Assembly: GCF_012849375.1 (NCBI RefSeq)
Contig: NZ_CP051684.1
Location: 2,108,001 to 2,172,000, forward strand
Source: Duganella dendranthematis
Lineage (GTDB): Bacteria; Pseudomonadota; Gammaproteobacteria; Burkholderiales; Burkholderiaceae_D
Reading direction: 5' to 3'
Length of the DNA stretch: 64,000 bases
In this document: in pieces, positions 3,125-39,228 of the stretch
Layout: every line of letters begins with the position of its first letter
How positions within the stretch are numbered: position 1 is the stretch's first letter
The notes under the pieces: model-generated
The model's database searches: none
The model's input: only the letters and a program-made list of their open reading frames with translations
Told to the model about the DNA's origin: nothing
Position numbers and translations under genes: made by a program

Positions 3125-4108
3125 TCATCCAAAGCGCGATTGATAGTCGCTGGGTGCTACGCCCAGCTGCGCGGCAAATGCGCGCCGCAGATTGTACTCG
3201 CTGCCGAAGCCGCTCTGGCGGGCGGCGCGCTTAACCGTCATGCCGGCCTGCTCCAGCAGCCCGCAGGCGGCCTCCATGCGCAGCCGCAGCAGCAGTTGCG
3301 CCGGCGACAGTCCGGCTTCCTGCTGCAGGTGGCGGTGCAGCGTGCGCACCGATACCGCCAGCGCGGCCGCCATTTGCTCGACATCCAGCTGCTGCTGCAA
3401 GCGCGGCCGCAGCCAGGCGGTCAGGCGACCGTGCAAACCCTGCGGTTCGGCCTGGGCCAGCAATTCGGTGCTGAACTGGCGCTGGCCGCCGGGCCGCTTG
3501 TAGAACACCACCAGCCGCTTGGCCACTGCCAGTCCGGCGGCGCGGCCCTGATCCTCTTCGACCAGCGCCAGCGCCAGATCGATGCCGGCGGCGATGCCGG
3601 CCGAGGTGTACAGCGCGCCGTCTCTAATATAGATGGCGTCTTCCTGCACGGTGATGGCCGGGTATTGGGCTTGCAGCGCGGCGGCGTCCTGCCAGTGGGT
3701 GACGGCGCGGCGGCCGTCCAGCAGACCGGCACGCGCCAGCACGAAGGCGCCGGTGCACACCGAGCAGCAGCGCGCCAGCTGGCTGGCGGCCTGCACTACC
3801 CAGTCGACCAGCGCGGCATCCAGCGCCGGACTGGCATCCGGCCCGCGTTCCACCCCACGACCGCCGGCCACCATCAGCGTGGCGCCGGCCAGCGCGGACG
3901 GCGAAGGCAAGGGCGCGGCCTGTACGGAAACGCCTGCGGTCGACATCACCAGACCGGGTTCGGCGGCGATCATATTGATTTGATAAGGCGACGGCCGGCC
4001 GGCGTCGGCCGCCTCGTCATTGGCGGTGGCAAACACTTGGGCGGGGCCGGTAGCGTCCAGCAGCAAAAAGCCGGGATACACCAGCAGCCAGATCGGGATC
4101 GGAGTCAT
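3125..4108 (-). CDS. GlxA family AraC-type transcriptional regulator
   Basis: 327 residues. The N-terminal two thirds (about 1-190) are a DJ-1/PfpI class I glutamine amidotransferase-like domain, with the nucleophile-elbow motif SVCTGAF and the conserved THWQ downstream. The C-terminal third (about 225-325) is an AraC-type double helix-turn-helix domain, ending in the usual PSDYQSRFG-like tail. The family normally acts as a ligand-sensing cytoplasmic activator or repressor. It is transcribed divergently from a stand-alone DJ-1/PfpI protein starting at 4190, so the 81-bp gap probably carries the shared control region. Ligand unknown. Confidence 0.9.
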   Translation of the reverse strand: MTPIPIWLLVYPGFLLLDATGPAQVFATANDEAADAGRPSPYQINMIAAEPGLVMSTAGVSVQAAPLPSPSALAGATLMVAGGRGVERGPDASPALDAALVDWVVQAASQLARCCSVCTGAFVLARAGLLDGRRAVTHWQDAAALQAQYPAITVQEDAIYIRDGALYTSAGIAAGIDLALALVEEDQGRAAGLAVAKRLVVFYKRPGGQRQFSTELLAQAEPQGLHGRLTAWLRPRLQQQLDVEQMAAALAVSVRTLHRHLQQEAGLSPAQLLLRLRMEAACGLLEQAGMTVKRAARQSGFGSEYNLRRAFAAQLGVAPSDYQSRFG

Positions 4109-4189
4109 CTGGCAGATATTCCACCATGGATGTCATTTGTGTCAACTGTGGCCGTGCCAACATGGCTGATTAGGGACAAGGAGATCGCC

Positions 4190-4792
4190 ATGACACGCAC
4201 CGTAGGCATTTATATTTTCGACAACGTTGAAGTATTGGACTTTGCCGGCCCGTATGAGGTATTCACCTGCGCCACGCGGGTGGCGGCCGGACTGACGCCC
4301 AACGCGCCGCCGCCGTTCGCCGTGCGCACCATCGGCGCCAGCAACCTGCCGGTGCGCGCCCGCGCGGGACTGGTGCTGCATCCGGAAACCACCTTGGCCG
4401 ACACCGGCCGGATTGACGTGCTCATTGTGCCGGGTGGCGTCGTCGGCGCCGAGCTGATGCGACCGGAAGTCATCCGCTGGATCGCTGCCACGGCGGCGAC
4501 GGCGGAACTGACGGCCTCGGTCTGCACCGGCGCCGTACTGCTGGCCAAGGCCGGCCTGCTGGACGGCCTGCCCGCCACCACCCACTGGCAAGACCTGGAC
4601 GAACTGCGCTCGGGCTGGCCGCAGGTCGAGGTCAAGACCGGCCAGCGCTGGGTCGATACCGGCCGCATTGTCAGCTCGGCCGGCATCTCGGCCGGCATCG
4701 ACATGTCGCTGCACCTGGTGGCGCGGTTGAGCGGCGCGGCGCTGGCCGACCGCACCGCGCGCCAGATGGACTACGACTGGCGCCGCGACTGA
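4190..4792 (+). CDS. DJ-1/PfpI family protein
   Basis: 200 residues. The start is the ATG at 4190 with an ACAAGGAGA ribosome site just upstream; the open frame extends much further 5' but that part is antisense to the regulator. It is a single DJ-1/PfpI domain with the nucleophile motif SVCTGAV, followed by TTHWQD, as in isonitrile hydratase-like and ThiJ-like proteins. It lacks the AraC domain of its divergent neighbour, although the two PfpI domains resemble each other. Likely a cytoplasmic enzyme or chaperone under control of that regulator; the substrate cannot be told. Confidence 0.85.
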   Translation: MTRTVGIYIFDNVEVLDFAGPYEVFTCATRVAAGLTPNAPPPFAVRTIGASNLPVRARAGLVLHPETTLADTGRIDVLIVPGGVVGAELMRPEVIRWIAATAATAELTASVCTGAVLLAKAGLLDGLPATTHWQDLDELRSGWPQVEVKTGQRWVDTGRIVSSAGISAGIDMSLHLVARLSGAALADRTARQMDYDWRRD

Positions 4793-4796
4793 GCCG

Positions 4797-7439
4797 TCAT
4801 AGCTTTTTCAGCTGTTCGCGCGCATAGGTGGCGCTTGGATGGTTGGGGGCCAGCGCCAGAAAGCTGGTGTAGGCCTGCTTGGCTTTCTCGTTGTCGTTCA
4901 GGTGCGCGCGAGCGTCGCCGAGGTTGAGATAGGCGATGGCGCGCGAGGTGTCGATTTGCAGCGTGTTTTCAAACCAGCGCGCCGCCTCGGCATATTTCTC
5001 CTGCTTGTAATAGACGAAGCCGAGGTTGTTGGCGGCCAGGCCGAAGTCCGGCCGGAATTTCAGCGCCTCGGTAAACGCCGCCTCGGCCTGCGCATACTGC
5101 TTCTCTTTATACAGTTGCATGCCACGGTCGTTGGCGCGCTGCGCCAGCTGGCGCGCCGACACATCGACCGGCTTCGGCGCCGCCAGTTTCTGTTCGCCGC
5201 CGTTCAGGTTCTTGACCACCACTGCGTTGCCCTCGGCCTGCTGGCTGCGGGCGCTATCGAGCTTGCTGTTAAGTGCGATGGCGTCAGCCGGCAATTGCGT
5301 CGACTGCGCACTGAGGAACTCGGCCTCGACCGGCAACTGGAACACGAACTCGCCGCCCTCCGAACCCGGCAGGCTGCCGAACGCCGGCGTCTGCTGCGAC
5401 ACGCTGGCCACCGCCGGCGCCACATAGGCGGCCAGTTCGGTCGCGGTGATCATGCCGTCGCCGTTGAGGTCGGCCTTGCCGTTCAGCGCCTGCAACAAAG
5501 TCCAGGTGAATACCGAGTGGCCGCCGGGACCGCCATCGGCCACCAACTGGTCGGCGCCGCCGGCGGTCAGCATCTGGCGGCCGATGCGGCGCGCGTTGTC
5601 GCGCAGGAAGGCTTCGCTGCCGCCGCCGCGCGTCAGCCCCAGGCCGCTGTAACAAGCGTCCATGACGAACAACACGTGCTTGGCGTTGAGGCTTTCGGCA
5701 ATGTTCTGCAAATCCGTCATCGGAATGGCGTCGACGCTGACCTGCTGCGGATCGGAGTCGGCCGGGATAATGTAACCGAGGTTGCGGCCGGACGACAGCT
5801 GGCGCGTGGCGCCGTGGCCGGCGAAGAACACGAAGATGCGGTCATCCTTCTTCAGCTTGGCTTCGGCCAGCTTGTCGTGGAACAGCGCCAGGATGTTGTT
5901 GCGGGTGGCCTCGCCGTTGGTCAGCGTGAACACGCGCTCGCCGGCAAACCCGAAACGGTTGACCAGCGTGTCGCGGATCGCCTTGGCGTCCTGCACCGCG
6001 TATTGCAGCTTGGGCCACTTCTGGTAATCGTTGATGCCGATCACCACCGCGTAACTGTTGGCGTAGCCGGTGCTGATGGCGACCTGCTCCGGCGCCGGCT
6101 TGGCGCCCTTGGCGACCTTGAACTCCTGGCCGTCCCAGGCGGCAAAGCTGTAGCCGTCGGCAATCAGCTTGTCCAGCACCATCGGCAGCGCCTTGACGCT
6201 GCGGTCGTGGATGTCGTGGAACAGGATGATGCCGCGCTGCTCCTTGGCCAGCGTGCCCAGCACGCGGTTGGCGATCGAGCTCGGCACCGGATCGGCCCAG
6301 TCCATCGAATCCACATTCCACATCACCGAGCGCAGGCCCAGCTTGGACAGGATGGCCAGTCCTTCGGCATTGTGTGCGCCATACGGGAAGCGGAACAGCG
6401 GCGAGCGGCGCTCGTCGGCGGCCTTCAGCGCGGTGTCGGTGTTGGCGATTTCGCCGTACAGCTTGTCGCCGCTCTGCTTGGACAGCAGCGCGTGGCTGAA
6501 ACTGTGGTTGCCCACGGTGTGGCCGGCGTCGATCAGGCGCTTGCTCTCGTTCTTGTAGCGGCCGACGTTCTGGCCGACCTCGAAGAACACGCCCGGCACA
6601 TTGTATTGCTTGAGGATGGCGGCGATTTCTTCGGTGTAGGTGCCATGCGGACCGTCGTCAAAGGTCAGCACCACGGTTTTCGGCGGCAGCGTGTTGCCGA
6701 AGATTTCCTTGGCCGGCGCAGCAGCAGTGCCCGCAGCCCCAGCGGCGGCGGCCGGCGGCTCCGGATACGGCACGATGACGCCGTAGTCCTTCATGATCTG
6801 CTCGCGGGTGTACAGCTTGCGCAGATGGGCGACGTAGTCATCCCACTTCTCGCGCTTGGGCGTGATGGCGCGCGCTTCAAAGCGCGAGAAGATATCGCTG
6901 ATTTCCTTGTCGTACTGCTTCTCGATGTCTTCCAGCGCCGCCAGGTCTTCGCTGACACGCTTGTGCAGCTTGATGGCCGGCAGCGTCTGGTCGGTAGCCG
7001 CCAGCTTTTGCAGCGACAGCAGCACTTCGCGGAACGCCAACCGGTCCGCATCGAACAGGTCGGACGCCGATTCGATATACGACAGCAGCGCATCGTAGGC
7101 GGCGTCGCGCTGGGCCGGCGGCAGCGCCTGCGTTTGCACCAGCAGCGGCTGGATACGCGTCAGGCGCTCCAGGTTTTCATGGAACAGTGACTGGCCAACT
7201 TGGTTGGCGGCCTTGCGGTCGGCGTCGTTCAGGGTTTTCTCATCGGCCAGCAGCACGATGATCTTGCGGTAATTGGCCAGCAGCGCTTGCAGTTCTGGCT
7301 GCAAGGCCGGCACGGCGGCGGTCTGGGCCGATGCCGGGGACGCAGCCGGCGCAGCGGCCGGCTTGCCGCGCAACACCACATACGCACCGCCGGCGGCCAG
7401 CGCGGCCACCACGGCGACAATGATTAACTTGGATTTCAT
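4797..7439 (-). CDS. Polysaccharide deacetylase - caspase - EF-hand - TPR fusion protein
   Basis: 880 residues. An N-terminal uncleaved-anchor or signal segment (about 5-22) is followed by a helical region (45-225). A NodB polysaccharide deacetylase domain (about 253-440) carries TFDDG (259-263), the metal-binding H312/H316 in HSFSH, RFPYG (350-354) and H408 in FHDI. A caspase-like peptidase C14 domain (about 460-705) has H542 in AGHG and C596 in DACYSG. It contains an EF-hand loop at 657-668 (DLNGDG, with E668 at position 12). Three C-terminal TPR units (766-870) suggest protein binding. All catalytic residues of both enzymes are present. The protein probably acts in the periplasm on cell-wall glycan and protein. 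The combination is unusual; each single domain assignment is secure from its motifs. Confidence 0.88.
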   Translation of the reverse strand: MKSKLIIVAVVAALAAGGAYVVLRGKPAAAPAASPASAQTAAVPALQPELQALLANYRKIIVLLADEKTLNDADRKAANQVGQSLFHENLERLTRIQPLLVQTQALPPAQRDAAYDALLSYIESASDLFDADRLAFREVLLSLQKLAATDQTLPAIKLHKRVSEDLAALEDIEKQYDKEISDIFSRFEARAITPKREKWDDYVAHLRKLYTREQIMKDYGVIVPYPEPPAAAAGAAGTAAAPAKEIFGNTLPPKTVVLTFDDGPHGTYTEEIAAILKQYNVPGVFFEVGQNVGRYKNESKRLIDAGHTVGNHSFSHALLSKQSGDKLYGEIANTDTALKAADERRSPLFRFPYGAHNAEGLAILSKLGLRSVMWNVDSMDWADPVPSSIANRVLGTLAKEQRGIILFHDIHDRSVKALPMVLDKLIADGYSFAAWDGQEFKVAKGAKPAPEQVAISTGYANSYAVVIGINDYQKWPKLQYAVQDAKAIRDTLVNRFGFAGERVFTLTNGEATRNNILALFHDKLAEAKLKKDDRIFVFFAGHGATRQLSSGRNLGYIIPADSDPQQVSVDAIPMTDLQNIAESLNAKHVLFVMDACYSGLGLTRGGGSEAFLRDNARRIGRQMLTAGGADQLVADGGPGGHSVFTWTLLQALNGKADLNGDGMITATELAAYVAPAVASVSQQTPAFGSLPGSEGGEFVFQLPVEAEFLSAQSTQLPADAIALNSKLDSARSQQAEGNAVVVKNLNGGEQKLAAPKPVDVSARQLAQRANDRGMQLYKEKQYAQAEAAFTEALKFRPDFGLAANNLGFVYYKQEKYAEAARWFENTLQIDTSRAIAYLNLGDARAHLNDNEKAKQAYTSFLALAPNHPSATYAREQLKKL

Positions 7440-7484
7440 GGCAATTCTTTAGAGCAATGGAATCCGCATTCTATGACAAATTTG

Positions 7485-8726
7485 CTAATTTTTCACTTGA
7501 TAACCATCGTCCAGTGTTTTGAGGAAGGCGACGATGTCGGCGATATCGCCTTCATTCAGCAGCGGCTTGCCGCCCACCTTGCCGCCGAACGGCGCTTCCA
7601 TGTTGACGTTGCCGTCCATGCCTTCCGGCTGGTCGTCGAACTTGCGGCCCTTGTACCACCGCTTCGGCGTGGTGTCCCGGGTAGCGTAGAAACGCACCAC
7701 TTCCTCCAGGCTGCTGAAGCTGCCGTTGTGGAAATACGCCTTGCGCGTGGCCACATTGCGCAGCGACGGCGTCTTGAAGGCGCCGCAATATTCTTTGTGA
7801 TCCTTGAGATCGGTGCGGTCCGGGCCGCACAGGCCGAGGTCGTAATACGCCGGATCGCCGTTGACCGCCAGCTTGCGGTTGCGCGGCACGCCGATATTAA
7901 TCAGGCCGTAGTCGGTGAACTGCGGGAACACGCCGCCCTGCGAAATCTGGCTGATGTGGCAGGACGCGCAATTGCCCTTGGTCTCATCGTTGAACACGCG
8001 CAGGCCGCGCTGCTCTTGCGGGCTGAGCGTGACTTGCTTGCGCAGGTAGGCGTCGTACTTGCTGGTGTAGGGATAGAAATCGGTCGGGCTTTCTTGGAAC
8101 ACTTCCAGCGCCATCAGCGCCCCCTGCAGCGCGGCGTTGGGCCGGCTGAAGATATCGTCGCCAAACACCTTGCGGAACTGCGGCGCCAGCGCGCCATCCT
8201 TCAGCCTGGCCACCACGGCCGCCTCATCCTGGTTGCCCATCTCGCGCGCCGACAGCAGTGGCCCCAGCGCCTGCTCGTGCGCCGTCTGCGTGCGGCCGTC
8301 CCAGTTGTGACCGCCGGTCGGGCCGGCATCGACGCTGTCGTCGCCGTCATCGTCGTGATAGTGCTCGGTGAAGACCGGCACGTTCTGGATATAGCGCAGC
8401 GACGGCGTCGCCCGCGTGCCTTCGCTGCGGCCGTCGGGACCGCCCAGCTGCACCGCCAGATTGTTGTTGGGACTGTAGCCGTTGTCCGGGCTGTGGCAGC
8501 TGGCGCAGGCCAGCTTGCCCGACGCCGACAGGCTGGGCTCATTGAACATGGCGCGGCCCAGCGCGGTCAGTTCCGGCACGGTCGGACGGCGGCCCGCCGG
8601 CGGCGCATACGCAGCGCGGGGGGCATCGGCAGCGATAGTGGCGGAAGGCGCGGCGGCGTGATCAGACGGGGATGGCTGGCACGCGCTCAGCAGCGCAGCC
8701 ACGGCAACTGTATAAATAATTTTCAT
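7485..8726 (-). CDS. Di-haem cytochrome c peroxidase / MauG-like lipoprotein
   Basis: 413 residues. The N terminus is a lipoprotein signal with lipobox ending at C16 (LLSAC). Two CxxCH haem c sites are present, CASCH at 74-78 and CASCH at 253-257, the spacing typical of bacterial di-haem peroxidases (CcpA/MauG family). Expected to sit in the periplasm, anchored to a membrane, and to reduce hydrogen peroxide or oxidise a protein substrate with electrons from the cytochrome chain. It lies 45 bp upstream of the deacetylase-caspase gene on the same strand, so co-transcription is possible. Confidence 0.88.
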   Translation of the reverse strand: MKIIYTVAVAALLSACQPSPSDHAAAPSATIAADAPRAAYAPPAGRRPTVPELTALGRAMFNEPSLSASGKLACASCHSPDNGYSPNNNLAVQLGGPDGRSEGTRATPSLRYIQNVPVFTEHYHDDDGDDSVDAGPTGGHNWDGRTQTAHEQALGPLLSAREMGNQDEAAVVARLKDGALAPQFRKVFGDDIFSRPNAALQGALMALEVFQESPTDFYPYTSKYDAYLRKQVTLSPQEQRGLRVFNDETKGNCASCHISQISQGGVFPQFTDYGLINIGVPRNRKLAVNGDPAYYDLGLCGPDRTDLKDHKEYCGAFKTPSLRNVATRKAYFHNGSFSSLEEVVRFYATRDTTPKRWYKGRKFDDQPEGMDGNVNMEAPFGGKVGGKPLLNEGDIADIVAFLKTLDDGYQVKN

Positions 8727-8871
8727 GCGCGCAGCCTAGCAAAATGACGTGACCGCTACATGACAGTCATAGAACGATACAAAACGATACTTTTGCGACC
8801 TCCCCATTTCATCGTCCTGACATATTTGCTAAATAGCATGAGCCGCTTTCACCCACCACCCTCAAGGCAGA

Positions 8872-11013
8872 ATGATGAAATCAAACTTGAAAACGGCACT
8901 GCGTCCTGTGCCGCTGTTGCTGTTGGCTACCGGCATCGGCGCCGGGCTGATCGCTTGCGGCAGTTCCTCCGATAGCGACGTGCCGTCCGTGTCCGGCCAG
9001 GTGGTCGGCAGCTACTATGAAAACGCCGTGGTCTGCCTGGAAGGCAGCACCAAGCTGACCTGCGACAGCAACTCGGGCACCGTGCGCACCGGCGCCGACG
9101 GCTCCTTCAAAGTCACCGGCACCAATAGCGGCGCTTTGCTGGTCACCGTTGGAACCGATGCCATCCGCCATGACGCACTGGGCGACGCTGGCACCAAGGT
9201 GACGCAGAAACTGGTGTTCCGCGCACCGAACGGCCATACCGGCATCATCGACGCCATCAGCACCGAACTGACCGCCATCATGGACGCCAACGGCGGTGAC
9301 TTCGCCAAAGCCAGCGCCCAGCTGGCTGCACGCATCGGCGTCAGCGAATCCAACCTGCTGGCCGACGTCAACAAGGTATCGGGCGACGACCAGGCCAAGC
9401 TGAAAACCGAAAACGACAACTTCACCGCCGTCATCGCCGCCGCCGGCACGCAAAGCGCCAACGCCGACGTGGCCAACGCCATCAGCGCCGGCGCAGCGCT
9501 GGGCAACATCAAGAATATCGTCGTCATCTACGCGGAAAACCGTGGCTTCGACAATCTGTACGGCCTGTTCCCAGGCGCTAACGGCGTGCCGGGTGTGAAC
9601 CCGACCTCGACCAGCGCCTATGTGCCGCAGAAAGACATCGACAACAGCACCCTGCCAGTGCTGCCGCCAACCTGGGGCGGCATGACCGCCGCCGGCCAGA
9701 GCCTGGTGATCACCCAGGCACAAACCGCCAACCTGCCGAACAAACCGTTCCAGATTGACGACGCCAACAGCGCGATTTCGATGCCGCAATCGGTCATCTC
9801 GCGCGACCTGGTGCACCGCTTCTACAACAACCAGATGCAGATCAACGGCGGCGCCAACGACAAGTTCGCAGCCTATTCCGACGCTGGCGGCCTGACCATG
9901 GGCTACTACGACGGCAGCAAGATGAAGATGTGGGACATCGCCAAGCAATACGCGCTGGCCGACAACCTGTTCATCGGCGCCTTCGGCGGTTCGTTCCTGA
10001 CCCACCAGTACCTGATCTGCGCCTGCGCGCCGCAGTACCCGAACGCCGACACCTCGGTCGCGGCCGGCTCGATCGCCAAGATCGATGTCGACAGCAAGGG
10101 CAACTTCGTGCGCCTGACGCCGTCGGCCACCGCGCCAAGCAGCGTGCTGAACGGCGCCCCGGCCTACGCCAACGACGGCGCCCTCACGCCGGCCGATTCG
10201 ACCGGCATGTTCTACGCGGTCAACACCATGCAGCCGCCGTACCAGCCGAGCAGCAATGCCCCGGCCGCCAGCGACAGCAGCCACCTATTTGCCGACACCA
10301 CCAAGTCCACCACCTTGCCACCGCAGACGCAGAAGAACATCGGCGACATGCTGACCAGCAAGAACGTCGACTGGGCCTGGTACTCGGGCGCCTGGGCCAG
10401 CACCACGGCCAACGCCACCTCGGCCAGCCGCGGCGCGTTTGCCAATCCGCCTAACTTCCAGTTCCACCACCAGCCGTTCAACTACTTCGCCAACATGGAC
10501 CCGGTGAAGAACCCCGCCTACCGCGCGGCGCACTTGAAGGACTACGACACCCAGTTCGTGGCCGACGCAGCAGCCGGCACCTTGCCGCCAGTGGCGTTCT
10601 ACAAACCGCAGGGTAACCTGAACCAGCACGCCGGCTACGCGTCGGTGGCCGATGGCGACGCGCACATCGCCAACGTGATCGCGCAATTGAAGAAGAGCCC
10701 GCAGTGGAAGAACATGCTGGTCATCGTCACGTACGATGAAAACGGCGGCTTCTACGACCACGCTGCGCCACCAAAAGGCGACCGTTGGGGTCCAGGCACC
10801 CGCGTGCCGGCGATTATTGTGTCGCCATACGTGAAAAAAGGGTCGGTCGACCATACCCAGTATGACTCGGCCTCGATCCTGCGCGCGATTACCCACCGCT
10901 TCAATCTGCCGGTGCTGGACGGCCTGACGGTGCGCGACAAGGCGCTGGCCGCCAACGGCGCCAAGCCGATGGGTGACTTCAGCGCAGCGCTGGCGCTGAC
11001 GCCTCAGGAATAA
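8872..11013 (+). CDS. Phosphoesterase (acid phosphatase / phospholipase C family) lipoprotein
   Basis: 713 residues; ATG at 8872 or the next ATG at 8875, with AAGGCAG upstream. It has a lipoprotein signal (LIACGS). Residues of about 25-210 form an N-terminal domain without a recognised motif. The phosphoesterase core then begins with IVVIYAENRGFDNLYG and carries the late motif TYDENGGFYDH and GTRVPAIIVSPY, as in AcpA-type acid phosphatases and non-haemolytic phospholipase C (alkaline phosphatase superfamily). Likely periplasmic or surface-exposed, releasing phosphate from organic phosphates or phospholipids. It ends convergently with the kinase gene over a palindromic repeat. Confidence 0.88.
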   Translation: MMKSNLKTALRPVPLLLLATGIGAGLIACGSSSDSDVPSVSGQVVGSYYENAVVCLEGSTKLTCDSNSGTVRTGADGSFKVTGTNSGALLVTVGTDAIRHDALGDAGTKVTQKLVFRAPNGHTGIIDAISTELTAIMDANGGDFAKASAQLAARIGVSESNLLADVNKVSGDDQAKLKTENDNFTAVIAAAGTQSANADVANAISAGAALGNIKNIVVIYAENRGFDNLYGLFPGANGVPGVNPTSTSAYVPQKDIDNSTLPVLPPTWGGMTAAGQSLVITQAQTANLPNKPFQIDDANSAISMPQSVISRDLVHRFYNNQMQINGGANDKFAAYSDAGGLTMGYYDGSKMKMWDIAKQYALADNLFIGAFGGSFLTHQYLICACAPQYPNADTSVAAGSIAKIDVDSKGNFVRLTPSATAPSSVLNGAPAYANDGALTPADSTGMFYAVNTMQPPYQPSSNAPAASDSSHLFADTTKSTTLPPQTQKNIGDMLTSKNVDWAWYSGAWASTTANATSASRGAFANPPNFQFHHQPFNYFANMDPVKNPAYRAAHLKDYDTQFVADAAAGTLPPVAFYKPQGNLNQHAGYASVADGDAHIANVIAQLKKSPQWKNMLVIVTYDENGGFYDHAAPPKGDRWGPGTRVPAIIVSPYVKKGSVDHTQYDSASILRAITHRFNLPVLDGLTVRDKALAANGAKPMGDFSAALALTPQE

Positions 11014-30381: not shown

Positions 30382-31257
30382 ATGACGCTGGAACAACTGC
30401 GCATCTTCGTCGCCGTCGCCGAGCGCGAACATCTGACCCAGGCGGCGGCGGTGTTGGCGCTGACGCCCTCGGCCGTCAGCGCCGCGTTGCGCGCATTGGA
30501 AGAACGCTACGACACGCCGCTGTTCGACCGCGTCGGCCGCCGCATCGAACTAAACGATGCCGGCCGGCTGTTCCTGGCCGAGGCGCGCGCCACGCTGGCG
30601 GCGGCCCGTAACGCCGAACTGGCGCTGGCCGAGCTGGCCGGCCTGCAACGCGGCGCGGTGGCGCTGCACGCCAGCCAGACGATTGCCAGCTATTGGCTGC
30701 CGCCGTTGCTGCTGGCCTTCCACCGCCAGTATCCGCAAATCGAACTTAGCCTCACTATCGGCAACACCAGCAGCGTCGCGCAGGCGGTGCGCGACGGCGC
30801 GGCCGATCTCGGGCTGGTGGAAGACGGCGTCGATGCGCCTGAGCTGACCGCCACCGTGGTGGCGCATGACCAGTTGGTGGCGGTGGTGGCGCCCTCCCAT
30901 CCGTGGGCCGATGGCCGCGCGGTGGATGCGGCGGCGCTGCTGGCGGCTGACTGGATTCTGCGCGAACCGGGTTCCGGCACGCGTTCGGCGTTTGAGACGC
31001 AGCTGGCGGCGCTGGGCGTCGCGCCAGCGCAGCTAAAGGTGGCACTGGCGCTGCCGTCCAACGAAGCGGTGCGCAGCGCCGCCATGGCCGGCGCCTATGC
31101 CACGGTGGTGTCGGAACTGGTGGTGGCGCCGCATCTGCAAGCGGGGCTGCTATGCAAGGTCAACCTCGACCTGCCGCCACGCCCCTTCTCGCTGCTGCTG
31201 CATCGGCAGCGGCCGCCCAGCCGCGCCGTCCAGGCCCTGGCGCGACTGCTCGGTTAA
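30382..31257 (+). CDS. LysR-family transcriptional regulator (YeiE-like)
   Basis: 291 residues: an N-terminal winged HTH (TLEQLRIFVAVAEREHLTQAA, cut here to its recognisable start) and a C-terminal periplasmic-binding-like effector domain (about 90-290). The genetic link to yeiH and the sequence QTIASYWLPPLL are typical of the YeiE/CysB-like branch. It probably regulates the exporter in response to a sulfur or anion signal. Its last codon overlaps the convergent helicase gene by 4 bp. Confidence 0.88.
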   Translation: MTLEQLRIFVAVAEREHLTQAAAVLALTPSAVSAALRALEERYDTPLFDRVGRRIELNDAGRLFLAEARATLAAARNAELALAELAGLQRGAVALHASQTIASYWLPPLLLAFHRQYPQIELSLTIGNTSSVAQAVRDGAADLGLVEDGVDAPELTATVVAHDQLVAVVAPSHPWADGRAVDAAALLAADWILREPGSGTRSAFETQLAALGVAPAQLKVALALPSNEAVRSAAMAGAYATVVSELVVAPHLQAGLLCKVNLDLPPRPFSLLLHRQRPPSRAVQALARLLG

Positions 31258-34200
31258 GCAGCTTTGGTGTCGCTGCCGACCGTCTGCGCCGACGCCAGCG
31301 CGTCCACTACCTGTTTCAGCACCAGCTCCGGCTGCGCCACCCAATCCTTGCTCAGCACGCGCAGCAAACGCCAGCCGGCGCCGGCCAGCAATCCGGGCTG
31401 CTGCAGGTAACGCTCGACCAGGTCAGCGGACGCGTAATGCGCGTCGGTATCGACCAGGATGCCGAGGCGATAGGCAGTGTCGCCGGCGTGCCGCACGCCG
31501 AGGTCGCAGCGCAGGCTGGATTCGCCGATGCCGGTATCGACCTCCCAGCCGCGCTCGAGCAAGGCGGCGCGCAGTTGCGCCACCACCGGATGCAGTTCGG
31601 CGCGGCGCTGCACGGTCACCTTGCCGCCCATCAATGCAATCACCTGGCGCGCGCCGGCCTGGTCACCCACCGACGACAGTTCGGCGAACTGCAAATACGC
31701 TTTGAGGGCGAACGCGCCCGGGTTGTAGTCGTTGCGGATATCGCTGTGCTTGATACTCGACACCAGGAACATATGCCGCTTGGCACGCGAGAACACCACG
31801 TTGAGCCGCTTCTCGCCGCCGGCGCGGTTGATCGGCCCGAAGTTCATCAGCATCTTGCGCTGGCTGTCGTAGCCGTAGCAGACACTCATGATGATCAGGT
31901 CGCGCTCGTCGCCCTGGACGTTTTCCAGGTTCTTGATGAACAGGCCGCAGAACTGGCCGTCCTCTTCGCGCTCGTAGGCCGCATCCAGCAGCGCCGAGAA
32001 CGCCGGGTCCTGGCCGGCCAAGGTCTTCAGCGCCTGGATGATCTCGTCCTGCTGCGCCTCGGAGAACGCCACCACGCCCAGCGTCAGGCCGGGGCCGTGG
32101 CTGTCGTTCAGTAGCTGGCGCACCAGCTGCGCGATGTAGCCAGCCTCGGCCGGATTGCGGCGATCGCGGTACAGGCCGTCGGTCAGGTAATGGAAACTGA
32201 TCGGCCGCTGCAAGGCCTGCGCCAGCGCCGGCGCCACCGCATCGCCGGCGCGCAGCGTGATCGGCAGGGCCGGCTGCACCAGCGCGTGGTCGGGGATGGT
32301 CAGCAGGCTGCCGTCGTAGAAACGGTGGTTGGAGAACGTGATCAGCGCCTCCGACCGGCTGCGGTAGTGCCATTGCAGCATGGTGGACGGCAGGCTCTTG
32401 GCGGCCTGGTTGAGGAAGCTGTCGCTGCTGAGGTCAGCCAGCAGCTCCTCATCCGCCTCGTCCGGATCGGCCTGTGTACCGAAGAAATTGGTCGGCGGCA
32501 GCTGCATCTCGTCACCCACCACGATCACCTGCGGGCCGCGGTACAGCGACGGCACCGCTTCCTCCACCGGGATCTGACTGGCCTCGTCGAAGATAACGAC
32601 GTCGAAGTAATCGGCTTCCAGCGGCAGCGTGTCGGAGATCGACAGCGGGCTCATCATCCACACCGGTTTCAGGTCGCGCACCACCAGCCCGGACGGACCG
32701 GACGCCAGCTCGCGGATGGCCTTGTAGCGCATCACCTTGGAAAACTCGTTTTCCAGCTCGCGCCGGCCGGCGGTATAGGCTTTCTTGAATTCCTTCTGCA
32801 CCGCGTCCAGCTGGCCGGCGCCGCTGTTGGCCAGCGCCAGCTGGGCCAGGAAGTGGTTGCGGCGTCGTTCCAGGATCACGCGGGCGTTGAGGGCCTGCAA
32901 CTCGCGCAGGTGGCCGCCGAGCCGCGCGCACAACTGATCGAGCTGGACGCCGTCCTGGCGCGCCAGCGCGGCATCGTCACGGTACAGCCGCATCAGCGAG
33001 GCGCGCGCCATGGCCATCTCCAGCGCTTCCGGTTGACCCTGCCAACTGCGCGCGGCGTGAGCGAACGCCGGCGGCGTCTGCTGCAAGGCCGACAGTCCGG
33101 GCGCCACCAGCGGCAACCAGGCGCCGGCCGTCTCTCCCGCCGCCACCTCGTCCTGCAATTGCGGCAGCGTCAGGTGCTCGACATCGGTCCAGCCGGCGTC
33201 CAGCGCGCGCAAGGCGGCAGTGCACAGCGGTTCCAGCGCCAGCAAGCCCGGCAAGTCGGCGTAAGCACCGCTGCTCAGGGCGTACTGGAACAATAGCAAC
33301 GCCGGCGACAAGGCGGCGCTGCGCGCGTGCAGCTGCTCGACCTGAACGCTGAAGGCGTCCACATCGTCAACCTGCCAGCTACTGTCGATCTCCGCCACGG
33401 TGGCGGCCAGTGCCGCCGCCGCGTCGTAATCCTGCTGCAGCCAGCGCAGGGCGTCGCTCCAGCGCGGCTGCACCGCATGCGCCGCCATGTCGTAATGCGA
33501 CTTGAATAAGCCGCGCAGCTGCCACCAGGCCGGCTTGAGCCAGCCCAGCCACGATTGCTCGACGGCCGCCGCCTGCGGTAACGCTGCCGCCACCTCGGCG
33601 GCCGACAGCCGCACGCGCCAGTGCGCGCTCTGCGCCGCTGCCGCCTGTGCCGCCGTGTGCTGCGTCGCGTACTGCCGATGCAGCTTGAGGAAGGCCGCGC
33701 TGCGCGGCTGGCCGGCGTCCAGCAATTCCGGCAACCGGCGTTGCAGCAGCGGCCGCACCGCTTGCAGATAGGCGCCGAGCGCGCGCAGCTGCGCCACGTC
33801 GCGCCACAACTCGGGCGGCAGCCCGACCAGCGCCTGTTGCAGCTGGCGTAGCAGCGGTAGCGTCGTCTGTACTGCGGAGCGCAACGCCGCCGCCGGCTGC
33901 GGCGCCGCCAGCAGCTGTGGATGCAGGTAGCGCAACGGCAGATGCGCCAGGCATGGGTCCTGGCCCGCGTCGCGCAGCCGCGCGGCCAGCGCCAGATACA
34001 CCGGGCCATGCGCGGCCCACAGCGCGTAGTCGGGCAGCGACGCGATGTCTTCCGCGCTGGCCTGGTGCGCGTCGATGCTGCCGGTCAGCTGCGCGATGCG
34101 CTGGTATAGCTGGCGCAGTGGAATGCCCAGGCTGTCGGGCGACTGCGTCATGTGGGCGGAGAATGCGGCCAGCTGCGCCTGTTCGCCGTCGGCCAGCGCC

Positions 34201-36368
34201 AGCAGCGCGGCACGTTCCTGCTCGGCCTGGTGCGGATCGGCCGCCGGCGCCATCCACGTTTCGTAGCAGGCCTTCAGATCCATCACGAAGGCTTTTTTGT
34301 CGCCCTGCGAATCGTGGATCATCGCGCACAACTGCTCCAGCCCGTGCTGCTGCAGCCGGTGATAGACGACGTCGATGGCGGCGCGCTTGGCGCAGACAAA
34401 CATGATGCGCTTGCCGCGCGCAACGTAATCGGCGATCAGGTTGGTGATGGTCTGCGACTTGCCGGTGCCGGGCGGCCCCTGGATGATCATGCTGGCGCCG
34501 CTGCGCGCGTGGGCGATGGCGCGCGCCTGGGTCGGGTCCTGCGGCACCACGGTAAACTGCTCGCCCAGCGACGGCGCCGGCGCCGATTCGGCAAAGGCAC
34601 GCCGCGGCGCCAGCGAAAAGATGCCGTCGAACGCCGGGCTGGCCAGATTCTCTCGCAGCAGCGCGTTGTAGTCCTGCACCAGCGACATCTTGCGGTAATT
34701 GAAGTTGCCCAGCGTGAGCGCGCACAGATCGAATTCCCAATCGTACGGCGTGCCCGGGCGCTCCTGGTCGACCGCGTAGACTTCCTGCTCGACGGTGGCG
34801 GGTGCAGTGACAGCATCCGGCGCCGCCATGTGCAGCGGGCGCGGCTTGCCCACCACCGACGCCAGCGGCGCCGGCTGCGGCTTGACGCGGTCGAGGAACA
34901 GCTGCACGCCGAGCGGATGGTAGGCGGCGGCATCGTAGCTGTACTCGAACTCGCCGTAGCTGCGGCGACTCAGGCCACTCAGCTTCTTGCGGCGGCGCTC
35001 GAACTGGTCCAGCCGCGCGCGCGCCTGGCGGCGGATCAGCTGGATCTGCGGGCGGTCGATCTTGTGCAGCGTGATGCCCGGCTCCGACTGGCGGATCTGC
35101 TGCTCGAACTGCGCGTGGAAGTCATCCAGCGGCTGGTCGAGGTCGATGCTCTCCGGCAGCTCGATGCCATACACCTGGCGCAGTACGTGGCGCAGCACCG
35201 GATTGACTTCCGCCACCGAAGTGGTGGCCTGCAACTGGTAAGTGTCGCGCACGCCCTTCTTGCGCGTCAGCGTCACCGGCAACAGCAGCAGCGGCGTGGT
35301 GATGCGCTCATCCTTGTCTTCCTTGAAGTTATGCCAGCGCAGCATGCACACGGCCAGCCGCAGCTGCGAGAAGCCGTACTCGGCCTGATCGCGCTGGGCG
35401 CTGGCGCGGATCGTGTCCAGCTGCGCCGGCAGGAACGGCAAGTCCTCGAAGCGCAGGTATTTTTGCAGCGGAATGGCGGCCTCGCTGCAGACCTGGCGCG
35501 CCACCGCGTCATGCCAATAAAACAGTTGCTGTTCCTTGACGTTGCGCACGTCCAGCATCAAAGGGAACGAGCCCATGGTCAGGTTCAACGTCTGCTGCGA
35601 CGGCTTGAAGTACAGCAGTTTGTTGCGACGCGAGACCTCAAACAGGCGGTCGCGCAGATGCGCCTGCAACTGGCGGCTGCGCTCGCCTTCGCCCGTCGCC
35701 GTTTCCGGCAACGCCGGCGGCACTTCCAGTACGCGGTAGTTGCGCAGCGTGTGCAGCGCTTCCTGCAAATCCGGCTGGCGGCGATGGCGCGACAGCTCGG
35801 TCATGCGGACGATAGTGCGCGCCCAGACCGGATTGAGGCGGTCATTCAGCGCGAACAGGTTGTGGCGGTGGGCCACAAAGCGCGCCAGGTCGTCCTCGTT
35901 GGACAGGTTGAGGCGGCAGGCCGCGCTCACCAGTACCAGGCCCAGCACGAAAATGTCAGTCAGCGGATCGTGATGGCCGAGCGTGTGTTCCCACGCCACG
36001 TAGCCCGGCAGATACTGCGGCGCCGTCAGGCCGTCGTCGCCCTGCGGCACCGCGCCGAGCACGAGGTTGCGCTGTCGCGCTTCATCCTGATACAGACGGG
36101 CGCTGACGGTGAGCGTGGTCAGCGGATCGAGCGCGGCCACTTTGGCGTCCGCCCGTTGCGGCGCACCGGCCAGGCCCTGTTCAAACCACAGCTGGTTGTA
36201 ATCGAAGCGCAGGCTGGCCACGCCCTGCAGTGGCGCCACCTGGTCCTGCGCGTGCAGCGTCGCCACCTGCTCCAGCAGCGGCAGCAGCCAGGCCTGCAAG
36301 TCCTCGGTCTGCGGCGTATCGTGCAGGGTGGCGAGGAAGTCGAAAAAACTGTGGGTCGGGTTGGTCAT
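31254..36368 (-). CDS. DUF4011-type superfamily 1 helicase with C-terminal Vsr/REase-like domain
   Basis: 1704 residues. The N-terminal part (about 1-230) has no clear motif. A DUF4011-type segment begins near 236 (LRDRLFEVSRRNKLLYF). The SF1 helicase core has Walker A GPPGTGKS at about 631-638, motif II IFDEAS, motif III GDEMQLPPTNFF, motif IV/V HYRSRSE and QGDERDLIIMS, and the final NVVFSRAKRHM. A coiled, insert-rich stretch lies between the two RecA halves. The last ~120 residues (ERGWEVDTGIG, CDLGV, LGILVDTD, RLLRVLSKDW) look like the PD-(D/E)xK/Vsr-like nuclease domain attached to such helicases. Its ATG overlaps the stop of the upstream M48-type protease by 4 bp. Similar helicase-nuclease proteins have been predicted to act in anti-phage defence. 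The helicase call is firm; the nuclease is by resemblance. Confidence 0.85.
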   Translation of the reverse strand: MTNPTHSFFDFLATLHDTPQTEDLQAWLLPLLEQVATLHAQDQVAPLQGVASLRFDYNQLWFEQGLAGAPQRADAKVAALDPLTTLTVSARLYQDEARQRNLVLGAVPQGDDGLTAPQYLPGYVAWEHTLGHHDPLTDIFVLGLVLVSAACRLNLSNEDDLARFVAHRHNLFALNDRLNPVWARTIVRMTELSRHRRQPDLQEALHTLRNYRVLEVPPALPETATGEGERSRQLQAHLRDRLFEVSRRNKLLYFKPSQQTLNLTMGSFPLMLDVRNVKEQQLFYWHDAVARQVCSEAAIPLQKYLRFEDLPFLPAQLDTIRASAQRDQAEYGFSQLRLAVCMLRWHNFKEDKDERITTPLLLLPVTLTRKKGVRDTYQLQATTSVAEVNPVLRHVLRQVYGIELPESIDLDQPLDDFHAQFEQQIRQSEPGITLHKIDRPQIQLIRRQARARLDQFERRRKKLSGLSRRSYGEFEYSYDAAAYHPLGVQLFLDRVKPQPAPLASVVGKPRPLHMAAPDAVTAPATVEQEVYAVDQERPGTPYDWEFDLCALTLGNFNYRKMSLVQDYNALLRENLASPAFDGIFSLAPRRAFAESAPAPSLGEQFTVVPQDPTQARAIAHARSGASMIIQGPPGTGKSQTITNLIADYVARGKRIMFVCAKRAAIDVVYHRLQQHGLEQLCAMIHDSQGDKKAFVMDLKACYETWMAPAADPHQAEQERAALLALADGEQAQLAAFSAHMTQSPDSLGIPLRQLYQRIAQLTGSIDAHQASAEDIASLPDYALWAAHGPVYLALAARLRDAGQDPCLAHLPLRYLHPQLLAAPQPAAALRSAVQTTLPLLRQLQQALVGLPPELWRDVAQLRALGAYLQAVRPLLQRRLPELLDAGQPRSAAFLKLHRQYATQHTAAQAAAAQSAHWRVRLSAAEVAAALPQAAAVEQSWLGWLKPAWWQLRGLFKSHYDMAAHAVQPRWSDALRWLQQDYDAAAALAATVAEIDSSWQVDDVDAFSVQVEQLHARSAALSPALLLFQYALSSGAYADLPGLLALEPLCTAALRALDAGWTDVEHLTLPQLQDEVAAGETAGAWLPLVAPGLSALQQTPPAFAHAARSWQGQPEALEMAMARASLMRLYRDDAALARQDGVQLDQLCARLGGHLRELQALNARVILERRRNHFLAQLALANSGAGQLDAVQKEFKKAYTAGRRELENEFSKVMRYKAIRELASGPSGLVVRDLKPVWMMSPLSISDTLPLEADYFDVVIFDEASQIPVEEAVPSLYRGPQVIVVGDEMQLPPTNFFGTQADPDEADEELLADLSSDSFLNQAAKSLPSTMLQWHYRSRSEALITFSNHRFYDGSLLTIPDHALVQPALPITLRAGDAVAPALAQALQRPISFHYLTDGLYRDRRNPAEAGYIAQLVRQLLNDSHGPGLTLGVVAFSEAQQDEIIQALKTLAGQDPAFSALLDAAYEREEDGQFCGLFIKNLENVQGDERDLIIMSVCYGYDSQRKMLMNFGPINRAGGEKRLNVVFSRAKRHMFLVSSIKHSDIRNDYNPGAFALKAYLQFAELSSVGDQAGARQVIALMGGKVTVQRRAELHPVVAQLRAALLERGWEVDTGIGESSLRCDLGVRHAGDTAYRLGILVDTDAHYASADLVERYLQQPGLLAGAGWRLLRVLSKDWVAQPELVLKQVVDALASAQTVGSDTKAA

Positions 36369-37543
36369 GGGCGGTGGATATCGGTGGGGATCGTCATGGC
36401 GCGCAATCTGGCCACGGCGGTTTTCTTCAGCTTGGTTTCCTTCAGGACCGCGCGCTCGAACGCATCGGCGATGTCCAGCTGCTGGGCCAGCTGCAACGCG
36501 GCCGCCATCGGCAGTTCTTCCAGCGCCGGATCGGCGCAGGCGAAGTCGAGCAGTACGAAGGACAGGTATTCATCGAGCTGGTGCGGCTGCGGCAGGCGCA
36601 CCTGGCCCACCACGCCCAGGTGGCGCTCGGCGGGCGGTTCGCCGGGCAGGAAATCGTCCCAGTAGCGCCGCGCCAGCGCGCGCACGGTTTCGCTGTTGAA
36701 CCATGGCGAGGCCAGCAGACCGGCCACCACGCTGCGCGTCAGCGCGGCCACCTCGACCTGGCCGAGGATGTCGAGCGTGTCCGGCGCCAGCGCGCCGTCC
36801 AGCCATTGCGCCAGCGTGGCGTCGCAATCGGACGCACCGGCCGCATGCAGCGCCAGCGCGCGGGCCCGGATAAACGATTGCGGATGGCTGACCGCCTCGC
36901 TCACCACGCCCTCATGCGCCAGGATGCGGTCGGCCTGCTCCAGATAGCTGTCGACGTGCACCTGCTTGAGTCCGGTCTGGATCTTGACCAGGCTGGCGAT
37001 GCACGGCGCGATATCCTGGCACACCTGGTAGGCGCCGCGGTCGGCATAGATTTCCATATATTGCTGGTAACGCAGCGCCGTGTGGTGCCACTCGCCGACG
37101 CCGGCCTCTTCCGCCGCAAGGCGCTCGACCAGCCGGCTGCCGATCCAGTACCTGCCGCCGTCACGCTGCCACAGCTCGTAATGCGCCAGCTCGTGGCCGA
37201 TCACGGCTTGCAGTTCGGCCGCGTCCAGCAGTTCCAGTACCGGGCCGCTGAACACGATATGGGCCGCCTGGTCCTCGATCAGGATCGCCACATTGGGCTG
37301 GCTGTCATGCTGGGCCTGGTACAGCGCCACCTCGGGCGCAATGCCGAGCCGCTGCGCCGCCAGCGCCACGGCGGCATGTAGCGCAGCGTGCGCTTCGCGG
37401 CTCAGCTGGTAGGTGGTCTTGAGCAAGTGCAGGCGCAGCTCGGGGTCGTGCTGCTGGCGGCTGGCGGCGATCCATTGCCACAGTTCCGGCTCCCGCCGCT
37501 CCAGGTAGTCGCAAACGGCGAGGTGATAAGTAGTCGGTTCCAA
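36365..37543 (-). CDS. M48-type zinc metalloprotease paired with DUF4011 helicase
   Basis: 392 residues, soluble (no signal or membrane helix). The zinc motif is HELAH (H117, E118, H121, within IGHELAHYELW), with the likely third ligand E164 in MEIYADRGA, followed by D168 as in M48 peptidases. The C-terminal half (about 210-390) is helical and unassigned. It starts the operon; its stop overlaps the helicase start (ATGA). A cytoplasmic M48-like protease coupled this tightly to a helicase-nuclease suggests a joint role, for example proteolytic activation or substrate control, but that is inference. Confidence 0.8.
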   Translation of the reverse strand: MEPTTYHLAVCDYLERREPELWQWIAASRQQHDPELRLHLLKTTYQLSREAHAALHAAVALAAQRLGIAPEVALYQAQHDSQPNVAILIEDQAAHIVFSGPVLELLDAAELQAVIGHELAHYELWQRDGGRYWIGSRLVERLAAEEAGVGEWHHTALRYQQYMEIYADRGAYQVCQDIAPCIASLVKIQTGLKQVHVDSYLEQADRILAHEGVVSEAVSHPQSFIRARALALHAAGASDCDATLAQWLDGALAPDTLDILGQVEVAALTRSVVAGLLASPWFNSETVRALARRYWDDFLPGEPPAERHLGVVGQVRLPQPHQLDEYLSFVLLDFACADPALEELPMAAALQLAQQLDIADAFERAVLKETKLKKTAVARLRAMTIPTDIHRP

Positions 37544-37605: not shown

Positions 37606-38154
37606 CTAGGGCGCCGGTTTGGCGGCCGGCGTCTTCACCAGCTGGCTGGTATCGAAACCCTGGCGGGTCAGGCGATCGACCAGCGCCTCGTAGGCCGCCG
37701 GCGACACGGTCGGCGTACGCGCCAGGATCCACAGGTATTCGCGGCGCGGCTCGCCGACGGCGGCCAGTTGGTACCCGTCAGCGATATCGAGCACCCAGTA
37801 GTCAGCCCACACCATCGGCAGGAACGACAGCCAGGCCGGCGCAAAGCGCACCTGCAGCTTGGGCGAAGTGGCGGCGCCGACCTGGCGCGCCTCGGCGGTG
37901 GCTTCGATCATGTCGCCGCCGGCGGTCTGGCAGCGGTTGACCACCTGCACCTTGCCGTCCTTCTGCAAGGCATACGTGGCGGTGGTGGCGGCAACGCACT
38001 TGCGCTGGAAGGAATTGGGGAACTTGGCGATCTCGTGCCAGGTACCCATGTAGCGCGGTACATCCAGTGCGGCGATGGTGGCCAGCGGCGCCTCGGCGGC
38101 CAGCGCACCGCCACAGCACAGCGCCAGGGCGGCGGCGGACAGTAAAGTTTTCAT
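37606..38154 (-). CDS. Lipocalin (Blc-like)
   Basis: 182 residues with a signal peptide (MKTLLSAAALALCCGGALA). It has the lipocalin GxW motif in YMGTWHEIAKFPNSFQ and the family end motif region EYLWILARTP. The N-terminal Cys pair (CC) could be a lipobox, but a Sec cleavage at ALAAEA fits better. Periplasmic or outer-membrane lipid/hydrophobe binding, typically induced under envelope stress. Confidence 0.9.
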   Translation of the reverse strand: MKTLLSAAALALCCGGALAAEAPLATIAALDVPRYMGTWHEIAKFPNSFQRKCVAATTATYALQKDGKVQVVNRCQTAGGDMIEATAEARQVGAATSPKLQVRFAPAWLSFLPMVWADYWVLDIADGYQLAAVGEPRREYLWILARTPTVSPAAYEALVDRLTRQGFDTSQLVKTPAAKPAP

Positions 38155-38634: not shown

Positions 38635-39228
38635 ATGAACCAAGCCGAACTCGATCTCTTCAACGACAAGCTCGACGCCCACGCCAAGGAGGTGGAACGT
38701 TTTCACGGCGAAGTGGCGAACGTCACGCGGCAGATCGCCAACTGCGACAAGCTGGTGCGGCTGGCGAATGCCGGCCTGAGCCAGATTGACAGCAAGATTG
38801 CAGAAGCGGTGCGGGTCGGCGCCGACGCGCAGCACATCGCCGACCGCGCCGCCGTCGAGGCCAGCGCTGCGGCTACCCATGCGACCCAGGCGGCGGTCAG
38901 CGACATGATCGCGCGGCTGGCGGAAGCCACCGAGGCGGCGCGCAAGACCAGCCTGTCGCTGAACCTGCTGCAATTCAAGACTGGCGGCTGGATCGCCGTC
39001 TACACGGTGCTGGTGCTGCTGTGCTGCATGGCCACCGGCGCCCTGACCAGCTGGGCGCTGCGTGGCCAGGCGTTGACGCCCGAACAAGCCCACTACGTCG
39101 AGCTGGGTAAGGCCCACGAAGCCCTGCTGGCCAACGCCAGCGACAAAGAACTCAAGCAACTCAACGCCATCCGCAACCGCGACAAACCCGGGGTCAGTTC
39201 TTCCAAACGTACACAAGCCCAGCAGTAG
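38635..39228 (+). CDS. Coiled-coil protein with one membrane segment, unknown function
   Basis: 197 residues. The N-terminal 115 residues are Ala/Glu/Lys-rich and probably coiled coil. One membrane helix (about 121-146, WIAVYTVLVLLCCMATGAL) follows, then about 50 residues. The last 13 residues (after NRDKPG) are encoded by the inverted-repeat element at 39189-39274 and may not be ancestral. No recognised domain. Confidence 0.65.
   Translation: MNQAELDLFNDKLDAHAKEVERFHGEVANVTRQIANCDKLVRLANAGLSQIDSKIAEAVRVGADAQHIADRAAVEASAAATHATQAAVSDMIARLAEATEAARKTSLSLNLLQFKTGGWIAVYTVLVLLCCMATGALTSWALRGQALTPEQAHYVELGKAHEALLANASDKELKQLNAIRNRDKPGVSSSKRTQAQQ

Follow-up and report, generated by a model that had tools for sequence, protein, structure and literature searches.

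Proteins that join a helicase to a nuclease are common in bacterial immunity, and two named families come closest to the gene pair considered here, a DUF4011-type superfamily 1 (SF1) helicase and an M48-type metalloprotease encoded within 64,000 nucleotides of Duganella dendranthematis DNA (the window, part of a single-contig genome, G000:C1:2108001-2172000). The first, Hhe (NCBIfam NF042953), reportedly stems from the work of Gao and colleagues and is said to run in the order DUF4011, helicase and Vsr- or restriction endonuclease (REase)-like domain. The second, ProA (NCBIfam NF058533) or, in PADLOC, PDC-S37 (PDLC05009), is homologous to the window protein over the helicase and the REase-like C-terminus and is its best match in both libraries. 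The window helicase has the DUF4011, SF1 helicase and REase-like arrangement of Hhe but scores 445.7 bits against a cut-off of 2000 (445–487 bits in five relatives), and it likewise reaches only 655 bits against the ProA cut-off of 1500 (678–703 in relatives). The kinship with Hhe raised by a first-pass annotation of this locus is thus one of homology and architecture, not of membership by score.

The protease-helicase pair was not found described in the literature that we searched, subscription journals and preprints lying outside that scope, and term searches returned no paper on ProA. According to PMC10250203, one of the core genes flanking a defence hotspot in Pseudomonas aeruginosa is a large DUF4011 gene; the word 'protease' occurs nowhere in that paper or in PMC6589727, and neither 'metalloprotease' nor 'M48' in PMC8249566, the latter two papers also mentioning DUF4011. 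The vWA-MoxR, VMAP and other peptidase-effector conflict systems also use NTPase switches with associated peptidases (excerpts of PMC7159879), but their vWA or MoxR partner is not part of the window pair; the same excerpts mention a rare metallopeptidase effector, and the terms M48, HtpX and WGR do not appear in the main text of that paper.

Both genes lie on the minus strand. The helicase gene (31254-36368) encodes 1704 amino acids (aa), and the protease gene upstream of it (36365-37543) encodes 392 aa from a TTG start; the protease stop TGA and the helicase start ATG share a 4-bp ATGA (36365-36368). Re-reading the open reading frames (ORFs) bore out the frames, strands, lengths and overlap given by the first-pass annotation, and the TTG start is backed by a relative (P0004) whose initial Met falls in the same alignment column. 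Neither protein has a clear transmembrane segment by hydropathy, the highest Kyte-Doolittle mean over 19 residues being 1.48 for the protease and 1.76 for the helicase. The nearest named protease matches come from D. margarita (95% identity) and D. sacchari (79%).

Across genomes, the two genes are found together. With a protease alignment of 25 sequences (A1) as query, we searched one genome per species. Of 116 matching stretches, 95 proved to be relatives, and we retained the 80 best as loci; these come from several phyla and include Oxalobacteraceae, Burkholderiaceae, Variovorax, Pseudomonas, Lysobacter, Stenotrophomonas, Sphingomonas, many Verrucomicrobia and one Planctomycetaceae metagenome-assembled genome. 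A homologue of the window helicase follows the protease on the same strand in 79 of the 80, and the exception (L042) is a contig end. The first helicase piece starts within 4 bases of the protease ORF in 78 of these 79 loci and after 301 bases in L077, which is frame-broken. Taken to the nearest possible start codon, and hence minimal, the stop-to-start distance is −4 bp in 51 loci, −13 in 11, −8 in 5 (67 of the 79 for these three overlaps together) and between −59 and +61 in 10; the helicases of the other 2 are frame-broken.

The pairing also holds when the search begins from the helicase. We ran a profile built from 17 helicases (A2) against 100 genomes of Variovorax (the genus of L026), 398 of the window's phylum, 288 of Verrucomicrobia (the phylum of L012) and 199 of Pseudomonas (the genus of L050), scoring the two to four best first-look candidates per genome, with matches listed down to 1e-60 or 1e-100. 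Family members stood out at more than about 1,300 bits once split matches were considered, other listed matches reaching at most 476, and carriers numbered 20, 3, 6 and 8 in the four sets, respectively. The protease lies directly 5′ of the helicase in 30 of 31 fetched family loci; 29 of the family loci are full-length, and 11 of the 12 that were new relative to the first sample have the protease. By contrast, no ORF matching the protease profile, even at E ≤ 1, was found in any of 29 loci of cousin DUF4011-type helicases, in 28 of which the sequence upstream of the helicase ORF extends for 2 kb or more (for L126 it is 14 bases). Among 250 genomes of the window's order, DUF4011 occurs in 23 and the full-length protease only in the window genome, the protease matches in 119 others being weak, partial M48 hits of at most 49 bits.

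Evolutionary distances among the proteases track those among the helicases (r = 0.98 over 75 pairs, a figure that includes shared species ancestry); none of 2000 permutations reached this value or exceeded 0.11. The protease is therefore a dedicated partner of the helicase, as the data support, and the pairing is not random. The first-pass annotation had asked whether such proteases stand 5′ of DUF4011 helicases in many genomes and had named random neighbours as the finding that would undo its proposal; the former is borne out for this family, and the latter is excluded, by the counts of 79/80, 30/31 and 0/29. Coincidental neighbourhood in one operon, for which nothing speaks beyond the single window, is refuted by the same counts, and we assign it a negligible probability.

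The protease has the sequence hallmarks of an active enzyme of its family. It carries HELAH at residues 117-121, a third ligand, E164, within EIYAD (164-168), D168 and SHPxxxxR at 219-226; the ExxxD third-ligand and SHP..R motifs are what we take to be signatures of M48. With these and a Peptidase_M48 score of 37.8 bits against a Pfam cut-off of 20.3, the protein belongs to M48. None of the 75 aligned family proteases departs from the window protein at the two His and the Glu of HEXXH, at E164 or at D168. A search of the Protein Data Bank (PDB) with the protease profile gave no match at E ≤ 1.

The helicase, too, has kept its motor, as judged by its motifs. Pfam recognizes DUF4011 (aa 241-396; 35181-35648; 54.6 bits), AAA_11, AAA_12 and the MTES_1575 REase family, and the SF1 core with a long insert spans aa 612-1538 (31755-34535), with Walker A from G631 and DEAS from D1261. 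Residues K637, D1261, E1262, Q1289, R1336, Q1485 and R1528 are invariant in 89 of 89 distinct helicases (distinct in the last 600 residues, drawn from 106). The C-terminal REase domain (aa 1599-1691; 31296-31574) is a different matter. At 55.5 bits against a cut-off of 38.2, the family match of the window protein is real by profile score. The Glu of the ExD motif, a metal ligand in PD-(D/E)xK enzymes, is nevertheless replaced by a hydrophobic residue in all 89 distinct helicases (L in 83, F in 2, M in 2, V in 1 and I in 1), L1638 standing at this position in the window, with aspartates at D1622 and D1640. In cousins, the motif reads ...D...ExD, and ExD is kept in 26 of 29, the exceptions being L129, L130 and the frame-broken L132; the intact ExD of solitary DUF4011 helicases has no counterpart in the family, none of these cousins being established as a true Hhe. 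Of five cousins scored, three (L126, L131 and L141) exceed the ProA cut-off at 1697–2102 bits; they keep ExD, lack a match to the family's N-terminal profile (A3, below) and have no protease in the locus, that of L126 being without 5′ DNA. We read the family REase domain as catalytically dead or altered, and it is probably a DNA-binding or structural remnant. The label 'helicase-nuclease' given by the first-pass annotation, which had missed the absent Glu, is therefore not supported: the C-terminal domain belongs to the REase sequence family, but the loss of the ExD Glu is one half of the second finding that the annotation said would undo its proposal.

Because the pairing holds in both directions, the distances point to co-inheritance, the protease site and the helicase motifs are intact, and the REase Glu is lost, we narrowly favour a two-gene module for helicase-guided proteolysis. 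The pairing, the gene overlap, the conserved active-site residues and the missing REase Glu are its observed basis. The large protein would bind DNA and move along it, as suggested by homology, by the complete set of SF1 motifs and by the WGR domain that most relatives carry; it would bring the protease to protein-bound or abnormal DNA, or switch it on there, and protein would be cut at that place. Proteolysis by the co-encoded M48 metalloprotease would then be the output, an effector in trans that replaces the nuclease of ProA- and Hhe-type helicases. Complex formation, DNA-dependent activation and the substrate are things that we infer. In its fullest form, a defence-type helicase lineage would have retired its nuclease for a metalloprotease in trans, so that DNA recognition is read out as protein cleavage, against invaders or on protein-blocked DNA; we put forward this DNA-guided protease tentatively, with somewhat less than even confidence.

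Several observations weigh against this proposal. One family helicase, L122, is intact, has a WGR domain and lacks the nuclease Glu, and no protease gene adjoins it. The window copy and the Variovorax copies are without WGR. The REase aspartates D1622 and D1640 are each kept in 86 of the 89 distinct helicases, which makes residual or altered nuclease activity possible. Two short helicases of about 1460 aa from the verrucomicrobial sample, L129 (4752-9143) and L130 (4782-9149), lack the REase Glu (their motif reads GVLTD) and have no protease beside them, so that loss of the Glu does not require a protease partner. Some of this touches on a rival explanation in which the protease is a regulator, acting by processing or degradation of the helicase or of an inhibitor of it, and all the work falls to the helicase. 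Fixed pairing and overlapping genes fit such an arrangement as well, and L122 stands without a protease; loss of the nuclease Glu in 89 of 89 helicases, however, leaves no obvious output for a helicase on its own, and we consider a regulatory role improbable.

What helicase-guided proteolysis would be for is a separate question, and defence and the clearing of protein-blocked host DNA appear about equally likely. In anti-phage or anti-plasmid defence, the helicase would sense invading DNA and release the protease onto phage proteins or, in abortive infection, onto an essential host protein, an account that we regard as a serious contender while holding it at a little under an even chance. It draws on the nearest named families, ProA (in NCBIfam) and Hhe, being called anti-phage, on PDC-S37 being the best PADLOC match, on patchy occurrence (5/74 genomes in the window's genus, 20/100 in Variovorax, 8/199 in Pseudomonas and 6/288 in Verrucomicrobia) and on empty sites in close relatives. 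The five carriers in the window's genus belong to two deep types found in different species (three at about 610 bits and two at about 343). A lysR orthologue of at least 80% identity is present in eight genomes of the genus, the window's included, and the operon adjoins it in three (G000, G301 and G028). In four others (G299, G286, G288 and G313), lysR is directly followed by a glutaredoxin gene and the segment equivalent to window 31.23-38.24 kb (helicase, protease and a lipocalin gene) is absent; in G001, lysR is followed by a gene matching window 38635-39228. Because such empty sites exist in relatives, the operon is accessory.

Its genomic setting points both ways. Seven Pseudomonas loci occupy seven different sites, as judged by blastn of 5-kb flanks (at least 700 bases aligned, single linkage), whereas 18 of 18 Variovorax loci compared share one chromosomal site, and collections of plasmids, phages and viral contigs gave no match at the sensitivity used, both of which count against defence. 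So do the neighbouring genes. Using codon usage, in place of a simple greedy gene caller that performed poorly in GC-rich DNA, we called 232 proteins within 4.5 kb of 40 chosen family loci and 103 in the shorter flanks of 29 cousin loci, and scanned 95 from each set, excluding those above 900 aa, against PADLOC at 1e-15. The neighbours of the family hit 3 PADLOC families (DrmD and two Csa3 models, each with a single member), against 36 for cousin neighbours, including JetA, JetC, JetD, Dsr2, SoFic and WYL. This contrast comes from one sampling with the two sets drawn from different taxa, and families are not proteins: one protein may be hit by several models, three of the cousin loci are closely related, and the cousin-set matches to PDC-S37 (2) and Hhe (2) probably include pieces of the broken L132 helicase. 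It tells against a classic defence-island gene. The 'defence module' of the first-pass annotation is thus still a candidate, its cousin families being named anti-phage in NCBIfam and PADLOC and its operon being patchy with empty sites, but the scarcity of known defence genes nearby, for which the annotation had suggested looking, is the main result against that idea.

The sparse defence neighbourhood speaks for genome maintenance, in which the helicase would strip or unfold proteins crosslinked to or jammed on host DNA and the protease would digest them. Eukaryotic repair of DNA-protein crosslinks offers a comparison of function only, with no homology claimed: in the retrieved portion of PMC10175854, the DNA helicase FANCJ unfolds adducts, likely ahead of their degradation by the metalloprotease SPRTN. 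A WGR domain in most relatives would suit this role, being described as DNA-binding in the retrieved part of PMC7824862. The REase Glu has been dispensed with, and several of the 120 listed protease homologues match both M48 and SprT-like (PF10263, precomputed) in Pfam. The window protease itself, however, scores 23.0 bits with SprT-like, under the cut-off of 25.6, and falls outside SprT/Spartan; its active site is M48-like, with Glu as third ligand, and not of the SPRTN type, and core repair genes are not usually patchy with empty sites. SPRTN and FANCJ of animals are also of a different protease type and helicase family from the window pair. On balance, maintenance is a credible account, though one that we would not bet on.

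That a sister lineage so widespread consistently goes without the nuclease Glu, and is encoded together with a metalloprotease, suggests that one effector was swapped for another and that protein is cut in place of DNA. Were host DNA-protein adducts the target, bacteria would have their own helicase-protease equivalent of FANCJ/SPRTN; were phage the target, the pair would be a new effector class within a known sensor family.

The helicases of the family share a further distinguishing feature at their N-terminus, where about the first 240 residues in all 106 (aa 1-244 in the window; 35637-36368) resemble a protein-kinase C-lobe in profile comparisons. Every one of the 26 PDB chains retrieved at E ≤ 10 belongs to a kinase, with about six different kinases represented (best E 0.0076), and alignment by hhalign to eight bacterial kinases gave a probability of 89.9 and a score of 50, against 11.5–18.1 for seven controls (five column shuffles, a reversed profile and the protease alignment). 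The Pfam Pkinase match speaks against the resemblance, being weak and found in only 2 of 17 members (best E 0.07). The profile of this domain (A3) matches none of the 29 cousin helicases at E ≤ 1. Its alignment lacks the catalytic HRD and DFG motifs and has no N-lobe, and the domain is therefore not a kinase by motif. Three Pseudomonas cousins with intact ExD (L123, L124 and L125) have an N-terminal kinase-like domain with HRD (hhalign 98.8%), which aligns with A3 over 36 columns only (probability 36); the N-terminal region of L124 matches PADLOC mad6. At the other end of the protein, a WGR domain closes 64 of the 89 distinct family helicases by our own profile and exceeds the Pfam cut-off in three of five relatives scanned (60–70 bits). 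No separate WGR gene accompanies the WGR-less helicases in the 40 loci L092-L131, where the sole WGR match outside a full helicase ORF is a fragment of the broken helicase end in L111.

The ends of the inserted segment were also compared. The helicase and lysR genes converge and share 4 bases at their stops (31254-31257), so the segment abuts the lysR 3′ end, and exact repeats common to the 150-base stretches at both ends do not exceed 9 bases. The idea that a mobile element carries the operon was considered and rejected, a tRNA gene being absent in 17 of 19 loci scanned. The other two are L056, where it lies about 8 kb away, and L080 (Sphingomonas), where a tRNA-Ser (9364-9456) stands some 0.5 kb upstream of the protease (at 10001) and could mark an insertion site there. 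The lipocalin gene (37606-38154, minus strand) is common to the window and G301 segments and is missing along with the operon in the four empty-site relatives. It was not found beside the operon in L008 (D. sacchari) and is not a constant part of the module; lipocalin relatives occur without the operon in three other species of the genus. In L008, a VgrG-like gene (by eye), a gene of 743 aa without a Pfam match and an FGE-sulfatase-type gene (3711-9854) stand between the operon and a gene that is near it in the window.

A third conserved component was sought among the neighbours and rejected: on visual inspection, the clusters that recur across genera resemble LysR regulators and short-chain dehydrogenases, both of them large and general families, and the remaining clusters are mostly confined to one genus. 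In four Verrucomicrobia (L009, L013, L020 and L037), a family of about 620 aa, without a Pfam match in the two members scanned, lies downstream of the helicase, and a SWIM zinc-finger protein comes next in L037.

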